Shown: piece after piece, positions 46,080 to 50,080 of the stretch | Position numbering within the stretch: the first letter of the stretch is position 1 | How the letters are laid out: each line of letters opens with the position of its first letter | DNA from: Actinomycetota bacterium | GTDB lineage: Bacteria > Actinomycetota > Acidimicrobiia > Spongiisociales > UBA5794 | Direction: 5' to 3' | Assembly: GCA_030123765.1 (NCBI GenBank) | Contig: JASJXX010000008.1 | Span: 1 to 50,080 of the forward strand | Length of the DNA: 50,080 bases | Translations under genes and position numbers: made by a program | The notes under the pieces: generated by a model | The model's database searches: none | What the model was told of the DNA's origin: nothing | What the model saw: only the letters and a program-made list of their open reading frames with translations

Positions 46080-46085
46080 TACGAT
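46080..46085 (+). promoter_or_regulatory. -10 box (TACGAT), leaderless layout
   Basis: TACGAT ends 7 nt before the ATG at 46093 and overlaps the competing upstream ATG at 46084. It argues for the second ATG as the start of the MoxR-type gene. Confidence 0.4.
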
Positions 46086-46092
46086 GCATGCC

Positions 46093-46977
46093 ATGGAAGA
46101 CAACTGGACCACACCGGCGCAGGTACGTGCGGCGCTTGAGGGCGCCGGATACCTGGCAGATGACAGGATCGCCCAGGTGGTGTTCCTCGCGGTGAAGCTC
46201 CAAAAGCCGATCCTTGCAGAGGGGCCTGCGGGGGTCGGGAAGACGGCTCTGGCCCTCGCCCTCGCGGACGCAACGGGTCGTCGTCTCGTCCGTTTGCAGT
46301 GCTACGAGGGCCTCGATGAGGCGAAGGCTCTCTATGAGTGGGACTACCACAAGCAGCTCCTCCGGCTGCAGTCTGACGAGGGCGTGAGGTGGGACGAAGT
46401 TGAGGGAGACATCTTCTCCGAGCCCTTCCTCCTTGAGCGTCCTCTGCTCGAAGCGATCAGATCCGAAGATCCTGTCGTGCTCCTCATCGACGAGACCGAT
46501 CGTATCGAGGTCGAGACGGAAGCGCTACTCCTCGAGGTGCTCGACTCTTTTCAGGTCACGATTCCCGAATTGGGAACAATCCGCGCCGTGACACGGCCGA
46601 TCGTCGTGCTCACATCAAACAATACGCGGGAACTCTCCGAGGCGCTCAAGCGACGGTGCCTGTACCTGCACATCCCATACCCGACGGTGGAACGAGAACG
46701 TGCGATCCTTCGCTCACGTGTGCCTGAACTCCCCGAGCAGTTTGCAGAGAAGATAGCGAGGACCGTTGCGTCCATCAGACAGATACCGCTGCGTAAGGCA
46801 CCTTCGGTGTCCGAGACCATCGACTGGGCGCGCACCCTCCTTGCTCTGGGCATCGACGAGGTCAGTGACGCAGCTGTGGCATCGACGCTGAACGTGCTGC
46901 TCAAGCATCAGACCGACATCGAACGCACGGCGAAGGAGCTGTCGCTCGACATCGACGCGGACGTCCGACCGGAGTGA
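46093..46977 (+). CDS. MoxR-family AAA+ ATPase (CoxD-like)
   Basis: A 294-residue AAA+ ATPase with Walker A GPAGVGKTA near residue 39, Walker B VVLLIDETDRI, and sensor-1 VLTSNNTREL. MoxR proteins work with VWA-domain partners to mature or remodel protein complexes; CoxD/CoxE of CO dehydrogenase maturation is the closest known style. The VWA gene follows with a GTGA overlap. No CO dehydrogenase genes are in the window. ATG 46093 is preferred over 46084 because of the -10 box. Confidence 0.88.
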   Translation: MEDNWTTPAQVRAALEGAGYLADDRIAQVVFLAVKLQKPILAEGPAGVGKTALALALADATGRRLVRLQCYEGLDEAKALYEWDYHKQLLRLQSDEGVRWDEVEGDIFSEPFLLERPLLEAIRSEDPVVLLIDETDRIEVETEALLLEVLDSFQVTIPELGTIRAVTRPIVVLTSNNTRELSEALKRRCLYLHIPYPTVERERAILRSRVPELPEQFAEKIARTVASIRQIPLRKAPSVSETIDWARTLLALGIDEVSDAAVASTLNVLLKHQTDIERTAKELSLDIDADVRPE

Positions 46978-48401
46978 TCACCGCGCTCGCTGAGTTCGTT
47001 CACGAGCTGCGGGCAGTGGGAATCCCGGTCTCGATGGTCGAAGCGATCGATGCAGCGAAAGCGATCGAGCACACCGACCTCGCGTCTCGGGAGAATCTGC
47101 GTGCAACCCTCGGCGCGACGCTCGTCAAGAGTCCCCGCCACTACGGGGCGTTCGATCGAGCGTTCGACGTCTACTTCGGTCTCGCTCCGATCGGTGAACT
47201 CGGCAGCGAGGACGGGGGTGGGCCAGGAGCTGGAGATGGAACTGCTGAGGGGGGCGGAAGAGGGGGTGGCGGCAGCGGGGACCTGCTTGACGCCTTCGTC
47301 GAGGCGCTCGTCTCTGGCGACAGTGGGCGGGTTCGAAGCCTTATCGCACTCGCGGTTGATCGCCACGCGGCGATGCAGCCGGGGAGACCCGTCGGGGGGA
47401 GATACTACGCGTACCGTGTACTCAGGCGCATTGACACCGATGAGTTGCTTGCACGCCTCCTCGCGGCGCTCTCGAGCGGATCCCCTTCGGGTGAGATCGA
47501 TGACCGCATCGACCATGAACGGGCAGAAGCTCTCGTCCAGCAAGTACGCGACCGATTGGAGCAGGAGATCACCGGTCGTCTGATCTCTGATCGCGGTCGG
47601 AGCCAGGTTGCGGGCAACAGGCGCCTTCCTCTCGTGGAGGACATCGATCTGATGCACGCGACGCGCGTCGAGATCGAGGAGGTCGAAGCGGCGATCAAGC
47701 CTCTCGCCCGCAAACTCGCGACGAGGCTCGGGCAGCGCAGGCGTCACGGTGCAAAGGGTCGGCTCGACGTGCGGCGGACGATTCGCAGATCGCTCGGTCA
47801 TGGAGGAGTCCTCCTTGACCCCCGGTTCAGACCACCGAGGAAGTCAAAACCGGAGATCGTCATCCTCTGCGACGTCTCAGGCTCCATGGCCACATTCGCT
47901 CGATTCACGATGCAGCTCACATACGCGATCGCGGCGGAGCTCTCCAAAGTGCGTGTATTTGCATTCATCGACGGCCTCGATGAGGTGACGGAATTCTTCG
48001 GCCCGGACACCGACTTCGCCGATGGCCTGATCAGGATGAGCCGGGAGGCTGACATCGTGCGTAGGGACGGACACTCGGACTATGGGAGCTCCTTCACCGA
48101 GATGTGTGAGAAATACTCGGATGCGGTGACGTCGCGCTCGACGGTCATCATCACGGGGGACGCGAGGAACAACTACCGTGATGTTGGGCTCGAGGCGTTC
48201 GCACAGATCGTCGATCGGGCCCGTTCGACGTTCTGGCTCAACCCGGAGCCGAGGCGCTTCTGGGACACCGGTGACTCCGTCATGTCCCAGTACGGGTCGA
48301 TCTGTGACACGGTCGACCAGGTTCGCTCCCTGCGTCAGCTAGAGGCTTTCGTCGAGCGAGCAGCGTTGCGGGTGGGAGCCAGACCACGAATCGTCAACTA
48401 A
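46974..48401 (+). CDS. VWA-domain protein, CoxE-like
   Basis: A 475-residue partner of the MoxR ATPase. After a helical N-terminal region comes a Gly-rich linker (about residues 80-105, GGGPGAGDGTAEGGGRGGGGSG). A charged middle region follows, then a von Willebrand A domain whose MIDAS motif DVSGSMA starts near residue 300, with the later TGDARNN supplying the Asp. The C-terminus reads PEPRRFWDTGDSVM, typical of CoxE/YeaD-like proteins. It probably binds a metal-dependent protein target presented to the ATPase; the client is unknown. Confidence 0.88.
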   Translation: MITALAEFVHELRAVGIPVSMVEAIDAAKAIEHTDLASRENLRATLGATLVKSPRHYGAFDRAFDVYFGLAPIGELGSEDGGGPGAGDGTAEGGGRGGGGSGDLLDAFVEALVSGDSGRVRSLIALAVDRHAAMQPGRPVGGRYYAYRVLRRIDTDELLARLLAALSSGSPSGEIDDRIDHERAEALVQQVRDRLEQEITGRLISDRGRSQVAGNRRLPLVEDIDLMHATRVEIEEVEAAIKPLARKLATRLGQRRRHGAKGRLDVRRTIRRSLGHGGVLLDPRFRPPRKSKPEIVILCDVSGSMATFARFTMQLTYAIAAELSKVRVFAFIDGLDEVTEFFGPDTDFADGLIRMSREADIVRRDGHSDYGSSFTEMCEKYSDAVTSRSTVIITGDARNNYRDVGLEAFAQIVDRARSTFWLNPEPRRFWDTGDSVMSQYGSICDTVDQVRSLRQLEAFVERAALRVGARPRIVN

Positions 48402-48540: not shown

Positions 48541-49002
48541 GTGACCCGAGTGCTCCTCGTATTCGTTCTCACGTGGCTGCCCGTCGCTCCGGGGTGTCCC
48601 GGTCTCGATCTGCCGCCCGACGGTGAGATTGTGCGCCCCTTCGCCCCTATCGGGCGGTGGGCGGGCCACTGGGGTGTCGACGTCGCAGCGACGTCTGGAT
48701 CTCCGGTCCGCGCTGTCGGCGCGGGCAGTGTGCGATTCGCTGGAGCGATTGTCGACAATGTCACGGTCACGATCGACCACGGGGGTGGGTTCGTCACGTC
48801 GTACTCGTATCTCGTTCGAGTGACGGTTCGCAGGGGCGACCGTGTCGAGACAGGATCGATCATCGGGATTTCAGGTGTTCACGATGAGAACGAGGCCTTC
48901 CATCTCTCGCTTCGAGCGCAGGGGAGGTACGTCGATCCGCTCACCGGCCCGCAATGCATGTTGGCCCCTGCTCGTGGCCTCTATCTTGTGGGCGGCGAGT
49001 GA
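48541..49002 (+). CDS. Degenerate M23 (LytM-like) exported protein
   Basis: A 153-residue protein with an N-terminal hydrophobic segment (residues 3-18, signal peptide or lipid anchor at Cys19), then a LytM fold: GRWAGHWGVDVAATSGSPVRAVGAGSVRFAG, VTIDHGGGFVTSYSYL, VRRGDRVETGSIIGISG and AFHLSLRAQG. The first zinc pair HxxxD is present (HWGVD). The YxHL His is replaced (SYSYL), and the last HxH reads HLS, so one zinc ligand and one active-site His are missing. It may be a non-catalytic activator like EnvC or NlpD. It starts with GTG; no good ribosome-binding site is visible. nadD follows 16 nt later. Confidence 0.8.
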   Translation: MTRVLLVFVLTWLPVAPGCPGLDLPPDGEIVRPFAPIGRWAGHWGVDVAATSGSPVRAVGAGSVRFAGAIVDNVTVTIDHGGGFVTSYSYLVRVTVRRGDRVETGSIIGISGVHDENEAFHLSLRAQGRYVDPLTGPQCMLAPARGLYLVGGE

Positions 49003-49018: not shown

Positions 49019-49585
49019 GTGCAAGGGATCCTCGGCGGCACCTTCGATCCGCCCCACATCGCTCATCTCACGATGGCCCGAGCCGCGTACGCCCAGCTCG
49101 GGCTTGAGGTGGTGCGTCTGATGCCTGCCGGCGATCCGTGGCAGAAGCACGGCACGGGGGTCACTGCCGCGTCGCACCGCTGGGCAATGACCGGGCTCCT
49201 CGCCGAGATGGACGAGAGTTTGTTGGCTGACGAAACCGAACTCGTCCGGTCCGGTCCTTCGTACACGATCGACTCGATCAGCCAGCTCGGCGAGAGATGC
49301 GTCCTGATCCTTGGAGCGGATGCTGCCCTCGGGATATCGACATGGCATAGGGGAGACGAGCTCGTTGATCTCGTGGACCTCGCAGTAGCTCCACGGCCAG
49401 GAATCAAGATTGAGGATGTCGAGCGTGCTGTTGGCCGCCCGGTGACGGCACTCGATATGAGCCCGATGGAGATCTCGTCGACACAGATCAGAGGGCTTGC
49501 CGCCACTGGCGGCGACTACAGGCATCTCGTACCGGATTCGGTGTATGCATACATCGAGACGAACCGGTTGTACGTCTCGATGTGA
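49019..49585 (+). CDS. nadD: Nicotinate-nucleotide adenylyltransferase
   Basis: NAD biosynthesis enzyme that adenylates nicotinate mononucleotide. The 188-residue product begins GILGGTFDPPHIAHL, with the HxxH nucleotide motif, and ends with SSTQIRG (the ISSTxIR motif). GADAAL in the centre is also typical. The GTG start has a leaderless -10 box 7 nt upstream. rsfS follows after 34 nt, the conserved order. Confidence 0.95.
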   Translation: MQGILGGTFDPPHIAHLTMARAAYAQLGLEVVRLMPAGDPWQKHGTGVTAASHRWAMTGLLAEMDESLLADETELVRSGPSYTIDSISQLGERCVLILGADAALGISTWHRGDELVDLVDLAVAPRPGIKIEDVERAVGRPVTALDMSPMEISSTQIRGLAATGGDYRHLVPDSVYAYIETNRLYVSM

Positions 49586-49619: not shown

Positions 49620-50015
49620 ATGAAGAGAAGTGCACCAAGCGCCACCCCGGACGCAGTCAGAGCCGCGAGGGCAGCCGCCGAGGCAATCGACTCGAAATCT
49701 GGTCAGGACATCGCCCTTCTGGACCTCTCCGATCTCCTCGTTGTCACGGACGTATTCCTCATCGCCACGGGAACGTCAAGACGGCACGTTCTCGCACTCA
49801 TCGACGCGACGGTTGAGGCGCTCACACTGCTCGACCGGCGACCGATCCGTAAGGAGGGGGCCGACCACGGCGAGTGGGTACTGCTCGACTACGGCGACGT
49901 CGTCATCCACGTCTTCGACCAGCCAACACGGGACTACTACGAGTTGGAGAGGCTCTGGGCGGGTGCTCCTCGAATCGAGTTCAGCCCCATATCCGCTACC
50001 CCCGACGCTGGGTAA
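49620..50015 (+). CDS. rsfS: Ribosome silencing factor
   Basis: RsfS/Iojap protein that binds L14 and blocks subunit joining under starvation. The 131-residue product has the conserved IALLDLSDLLVVTDVFLIATGTSRRH and EGADHGEWVLLDYGDVVIHVF segments, then RDYYELERLW. ATG at 49620 is used because of the -10 box and family start; the frame upstream overlaps nadD. A TAAACT -10 box for the following tRNA overlaps its stop codon (50013-50018). Confidence 0.95.
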   Translation: MKRSAPSATPDAVRAARAAAEAIDSKSGQDIALLDLSDLLVVTDVFLIATGTSRRHVLALIDATVEALTLLDRRPIRKEGADHGEWVLLDYGDVVIHVFDQPTRDYYELERLWAGAPRIEFSPISATPDAG

Positions 50016-50031
50016 ACTTCCCACTCGCCAG

Positions 50032-50080
50032 GGGCTGTAGCTCAGCCTGGCAGAGCACTTGACTGGCAGTCAAGGGGTCA
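50032..50080 (+). tRNA. tRNA-Ala (GGC), partial
   Basis: The window ends inside this tRNA. Visible are the 5' acceptor GGGGCTG, TA, D-arm GCTCAGCCTGGCAGAGC, anticodon stem CTTGA/TCAAG with loop CTGGCAG (anticodon GGC), and the start of the variable loop. The 3' half lies beyond the window, so the acceptor pairing cannot be checked. Confidence 0.8.

Follow-up and report, generated by a model that had tools for sequence, protein, structure and literature searches.

Near the end of a 50,080-nucleotide stretch of DNA from an Actinomycetota bacterium (Acidimicrobiia; Spongiisociales; UBA5794; assembly GCA_030123765.1, contig JASJXX010000008.1, positions 1 to 50,080; hereafter the window), a gene on the forward strand encodes a 153-residue protein with the LytM fold of M23 peptidases. 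Judged by its residues, the zinc ligand set of this protein (H43, D47 and H121) is complete and only the catalytic pair of histidines is missing. On balance, we favour the reading that it is an exported, zinc-loaded and catalytically silent LytM pseudo-peptidase (hereafter the pseudo-M23 protein), which would act as a docking module for a hydrolase or a wall peptide; its role is probably in binding or regulation, not in catalysis. The features that bear on this reading are as follows.

48541..49002, + strand: pseudo-M23 (LytM-fold) coding sequence, 153 aa, probably exported (open reading frame (ORF), Pfam, orthologue alignment)
48541..48594, + strand: hydrophobic N-terminal segment, a probable signal peptide judging from the sequence
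48595..48597, + strand: Cys19, in 53/53 orthologues, with a lipobox-like context in only 2/54 (orthologue alignment)
48667..48669, + strand: His43, HxxxD zinc ligand, 53/53 (orthologue alignment)
48679..48681, + strand: Asp47, HxxxD zinc ligand, 53/53 (orthologue alignment)
48808..48810, + strand: Tyr90, replacing the catalytic YxHL histidine; Y in 41, F in 12 and A in 1 of 54 (orthologue alignment)
48895..48897, + strand: Ala119, replacing the first HxH histidine; A in 34, G in 10, S in 5, D in 3, R in 1 and T in 1 of 54 (alignments)
48901..48903, + strand: His121, second HxH histidine, zinc ligand, 54/54 (alignments)
48955..48957, + strand: Cys139, in 53/54; the odd row, L064, has its Cys one column off (orthologue alignment)

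Zinc ligands and catalytic histidines

Pfam assigned residues 42–133 to PF01551 Peptidase_M23 with 68.7 bits (gathering cut-off 28.7; E 5.3e-19). The reading frame starts with GTG, and the same alignment column holds ATG in four relatives of the same genus (L013–L016). An earlier note, made from the letters of the window alone, had described a small protein with a signal-like segment and a possible regulator of wall hydrolysis; the size and the hydrophobic N-terminal segment stand, and a regulatory or binding role is plausible.

In Staphylococcus aureus LytU, H76, D80 and H159 are the zinc ligands and H125 and H157 the catalytic residues, and in LytM both catalytic histidines, H260 and H291, are essential (PMC5519744; papers are cited here by PMC number from excerpts of their text). 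When the pseudo-M23 protein was aligned to M23 chains of the PDB and to canonical M23 proteins, its AFHLSLR...YVDP segment lay on HLHFEVR...VNP, placing His121 at the second histidine of HxH, the metal ligand equivalent to LytU H159, and Ala119 in the column of the first, catalytic one (LytU H157, LytM H291). The same comparison put Tyr90, within YSYL, in the column of the catalytic YxHL histidine. The earlier note had rightly recognized that HxxxD is kept as HWGVD and that the YxHL histidine is lost. Its reading of HxH as HLS, a degenerate motif with the first histidine kept, was rejected because the alignments put His121 at the second histidine; that register was two residues out, and the claim that the domain lacks zinc does not agree with the presence of all three ligand residues.

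We sampled 60 genomes of the window's order, its own included, and called orthologues at E below 1e-18, which gave a strong orthologue in 54 of them. All 54 were aligned; one row (L081) is truncated where its contig ends, so that counts for HxxxD refer to 53 rows. The 53 orthologues that reach HxxxD all keep the whole pattern, which is therefore not a chance one. No histidine stands at position 90 or at position 119 in any of the 54, including L081, which keeps His121. By the marks of an active M23 peptidase, therefore, the zinc-ligand residues are present and the two catalytic histidines absent (0/54 at either position). A check on the conservation of these substitutions had been suggested in the earlier note, and its outcome supports the description given there of a LytM domain without active-site histidines. 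Residues C19, H43, G45, D47, G62, S89, L91, G99, H121, S123 and R125 are invariant, whereas over residues 22–134 the commonest residue of a column has a mean share of 61%. Of these, S89, L91, S123 and R125 sit in the motifs of the former active site, and Y130 is kept in 53/54.

Two alternatives meet this evidence directly. A decaying pseudogene would account for the lost catalytic residues and has, in our judgement, a negligible probability: the frame is open and stop-free in 54 orthologues, the residues listed above are fixed, nadD is the neighbour in 54/54, and identity to the window protein is 39–60% (35 aligned). An active zinc hydrolase with rebuilt chemistry, in which other residues have replaced the two histidines, seems unlikely. 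It would fit the complete ligand set, the fixed S89, S123 and R125 and the nearly fixed Y130 in the motif regions, and the closest PDB sequences, which are M23 peptidoglycan peptidases (6jn0, 6jmx and 2hsi). However, no conserved acid or base occupies either histidine column (A/G/S/D/R/T at 119, Y/F/A at 90), a nearby histidine, at 117 or 118, occurs in only 7/54 orthologues, and LytM requires both histidines (PMC5519744). Tyr90 was rejected as a substitute catalyst, since Phe takes its place in 12/54. The earlier note had named catalytic residues supplied from elsewhere in the sequence as a point that would overturn its view. The only other well-conserved histidine, H80 (49/54), sits in a DHGG motif that is found too in the canonical paralogue L001, and H114 is a histidine in only 23/54.

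Outside the domain core, exactly two cysteines occur from position 19 onward in 53/54 orthologues, the exception being the row cut by the contig end. The simplest reading, which this pattern suggests, is a Cys19–Cys139 disulfide. A lipoprotein anchor at Cys19 was rejected, as a lipobox fits in so few orthologues (2/54); the residue preceding Cys19 is variable.

An AlphaFold2 model made from a four-row alignment clearly predicts a LytM fold (mean predicted local distance difference test (pLDDT) 64, with the ten-residue blocks from 51 to 110 at 78–92). In the mechanism that we propose, bound zinc would keep the groove in shape while the disulfide would tie the two tails together. The non-cutting groove would then serve as a docking site, most likely for another envelope hydrolase, for which the genome's six M23 proteins with complete motifs are candidates, or else for a peptidoglycan peptide, and this docking may steer wall remodelling.

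Amidases and other candidate partners

The earlier note had likened the protein to non-enzymatic amidase activators. We regard a metal-free amidase activator like EnvC, NlpD or DipM as improbable, although the pseudo-M23 protein shares with these a LytM fold without catalytic residues. A Foldseek search with the model returned the EnvC LytM domain (4bh5) first, followed by M23 peptidoglycan peptidases, DipM, Csd1/Csd2 and LytM; the best NCBIfam match was the activator ActS, and the genome holds one Amidase_2 gene. The NCBIfam scores are, however, far under their cut-offs (ActS 44.9 of 375 bits, EnvC 28.6 of 270, NlpD 25.3 of 311), and no model exceeded its cut-off for any of the three proteins scanned. 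EnvC has a coiled coil. No second Pfam domain was found in the 153 residues, coiled coils being outside the scan. DipM, whose groove docks autolysins, has LysM domains (PMC10336132), of which Pfam found none in the window protein. EnvC and Csd2 have lost the metal (PMC5053510), whereas the pseudo-M23 protein keeps all three ligands.

The window's own genome (98.6% complete) gave no match to Amidase_3, for which 8/14 controls were positive, and none to NlpC/P60. Because of this and of the metal loss in EnvC and Csd2, a classical amidase-activator role is unlikely. Across the order, Amidase_3 was found in 28/60 genomes (25 over the cut-off) and Amidase_2 in 35/60. NlpC/P60 is nearly absent, with 1/60 genomes positive against 9/14 controls, Corynebacterium glutamicum among them. 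None of the three distributions tracks that of the pseudo-M23 protein (54/60), and an amidase as its general partner is unlikely.

The pattern HxGxD...[YF]xH...HxH is present in each of the six further M23 proteins that the genome encodes. If the partner of the pseudo-M23 protein is a hydrolase, these would be likelier than an amidase. FtsX was also considered as a partner. The stronger of its two matches (G000:C45:5887-6171) is not near the pseudo-M23 gene, a placement that also speaks against an amidase activator. At about 1.3 kb from this match is an M23 gene with the full motif set (C45:4277-4564), and FtsX is likelier to pair with that one. In this region (G000:C45:4277-6171), the M23 gene is a possible catalytic counterpart of EnvC.

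Genomic neighbourhood

The pseudo-M23 gene lies 139 bases from the CoxE-type VWA gene upstream and 16 bases from nadD downstream, in the following setting.

46084..46977, + strand: MoxR-like AAA ATPase, neighbour (Pfam AAA; the name MoxR is our label)
46974..48401, + strand: CoxE-type VWA protein, neighbour (Pfam)
49019..49585, + strand: nadD (cytidylyltransferase-like), directly downstream (Pfam)

In all 54 orthologous loci nadD comes next on the same strand, with 12–132 bases between the matches. Larger flanks were read for 22 loci (L008 and L009 come from genomes already represented, G003 and G024); 20 of them show a VWA match on the side opposite nadD, at a distance of about 6 kb in L061. 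Further neighbours are presumably obg, proB and rsfS, names that, like MoxR, we assigned ourselves. A gene with a LytR_C domain lies between nadD and what we take to be rsfS in the three relatives scanned (L051:1142-2440, L055:7942-9216 and L060:4600-5988), a hint of an envelope context; the ORF list of the window shows no LytR_C-type gene at that place.

An envelope zinc carrier, sensor or store would have use for a fixed H-D-H site without catalytic residues. We hold this to be quite improbable: the three neighbours scanned with Pfam (AAA, VWA and cytidylyltransferase) are not zinc transport genes, no wider search for zinc genes having been made, and some members of the wider clade have lost ligands.

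Two further observations concern the flanks. An ORF that by eye resembles the receiver domain of a response regulator stands between or near the VWA and pseudo-M23 genes in L043, L045, L046, L047, L048, L050, L054 and L057; between the two genes in the window there is none. At the window's end, 50033-50080 resembles, by eye, a tRNA gene of which the boundary leaves only the first part; ARAGORN found no tRNA in 49900-50080.

A wider clade in the Actinomycetota

Searched against 396 genomes of the phylum, a profile of 36 rows (A1; the window protein and 35 of the 53 other orthologues) had matches (E up to 1e-12) in 294, canonical M23 proteins included. Motifs were read in fetched loci only, and canonical M23 rows are under-sampled in a clade gathered with the family's own profile. 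Of 130 distinct rows, 102 had lost both catalytic histidines, 7 the YxHL histidine only and 2 the first HxH histidine only, and 19 were canonical. We built a tree of 128 rows on 95 columns, from which the four columns 90 and 118–120 had been removed beforehand; the long rows L003 and L162 were dropped, and L011 (Bacterium HR33) was excluded. It placed 108 rows without the YxHL histidine on one side and the 20 others on the other, with a Shimodaira–Hasegawa-like approximate likelihood ratio test (SH-aLRT) value of 85, under the 95 mark; once L003 and L162 are put back (130 rows), 2 changes are required for the canonical rows. The 128-row tree is compatible with a single old loss of the YxHL histidine but does not prove it.

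Outside the window's order, H-D-H is kept in 45/55 rows that lack the YxHL histidine. In 24 of the 55, rpsB lies within about 1.1 kb, divergently in 9, a figure that is not an unbiased rate because 20 loci (L113–L132) were picked by hand from a listing; most flanks span 1–1.5 kb. Pfam confirmed the Ribosomal_S2 identity in 4 of the 7 flanking ORFs scanned. The rpsB-linked small M23 proteins resemble the window protein in their GHRG[VI]D zinc motif, the loss of the YxHL histidine and mostly of the first HxH histidine, and a Y[VIL]DP-like ending, and stand on the same side of the tree at a support that is not decisive (SH-aLRT 85). In the window's order, by contrast with most of them, GHWG (W in 51/53) stands for GHRG and HxS (54/54) for HxG, a cysteine pair is conserved, and nadD is the neighbour instead of rpsB. 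Within a clade whose members often adjoin rpsB, the window's order thus appears to have a form linked to nadD. Rv2891 of Mycobacterium tuberculosis, which has the motif and lies beside rpsB, is presumably one of the rpsB-linked small M23 proteins.

Two groups of sequences in this clade stand out. In five pseudo-M23 proteins from genomes of the same class as the window (L114, L124, L126, L130 and L131) the zinc ligands are changed, to NEH in four and NDH in L131, and rpsB lies beside 4/5. Four rpsB-linked proteins (L118, L123, L125 and L129) read [LV]DWG, with Asp in place of the second HxH histidine, and may have an H-D-D metal site.

Several results weigh against the favoured reading. A ligand is lost in 10/55 rows without the YxHL histidine outside the order (NEH 4, HDD 4, NDH 1 and RLH 1), so not all members need zinc. 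No orthologue was found in six genomes of the order (G015, G017, G025, G031, G032 and G046), only longer M23 frames of 388–648 residues matching; completeness is 90% or more in three of them. The phylum search (E up to 1e-12) found nothing in a further genome of the same order, G394. The earlier note had called for structure prediction to confirm missing ligands. The ligand residues are present, and the model is of modest confidence where they lie (pLDDT 59 for the block of H43 and D47, 69 for that of H121, tails under 50), which leaves the geometry of the metal site and the disulfide unproven.

Known proteins offer partial precedents for a zinc-bound docking role. In Clostridioides difficile SpoIIQ, a zinc-binding LytM domain is at work in a protein complex, which the absence of metal alters; SpoIIQ differs in being a sporulation protein, whose enzymatic activity is left open (PMC4982068). 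Helicobacter pylori Csd2 is a non-catalytic LytM protein that pairs with the catalytic M23 protein Csd1, and differs in having lost a metal ligand (Glu165), being metal-free and dimerising via a helical domain (PMC5053510). LECT2 also has an M23 fold without one catalytic histidine (PMC9662197), in a mammalian protein. The DipM groove that docks autolysins is a precedent for the docking itself (PMC10336132). Degeneration of a LytM domain is commonly taken to mean that zinc is lost (PMC8594824, PMC8416486). The titles and opening abstract lines of the open-licence papers found by literature searches mention no zinc-keeping pseudo-M23 protein of actinobacteria, which is no proof that none is in print.

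We tentatively suggest, as a possibility somewhat short of even, that the Actinomycetota have kept by vertical descent an ancient class of M23 pseudo-peptidases that bind zinc, unlike the metal-free LytM activators, and dock wall peptides or hydrolases. The window protein would be its disulfide-closed, nadD-linked form, and Rv2891-type proteins another, rather than active peptidases as PMC8594824 suggests. If this is true, a widespread class that keeps the ligands and lacks the catalytic histidines would separate metal binding from catalysis and offer a clean test of the role of zinc in a pseudo-peptidase. It would also call into question the possibility, raised in PMC8594824, that the three M23 proteins of M. 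tuberculosis, of which Rv2891 is one, are active peptidases.
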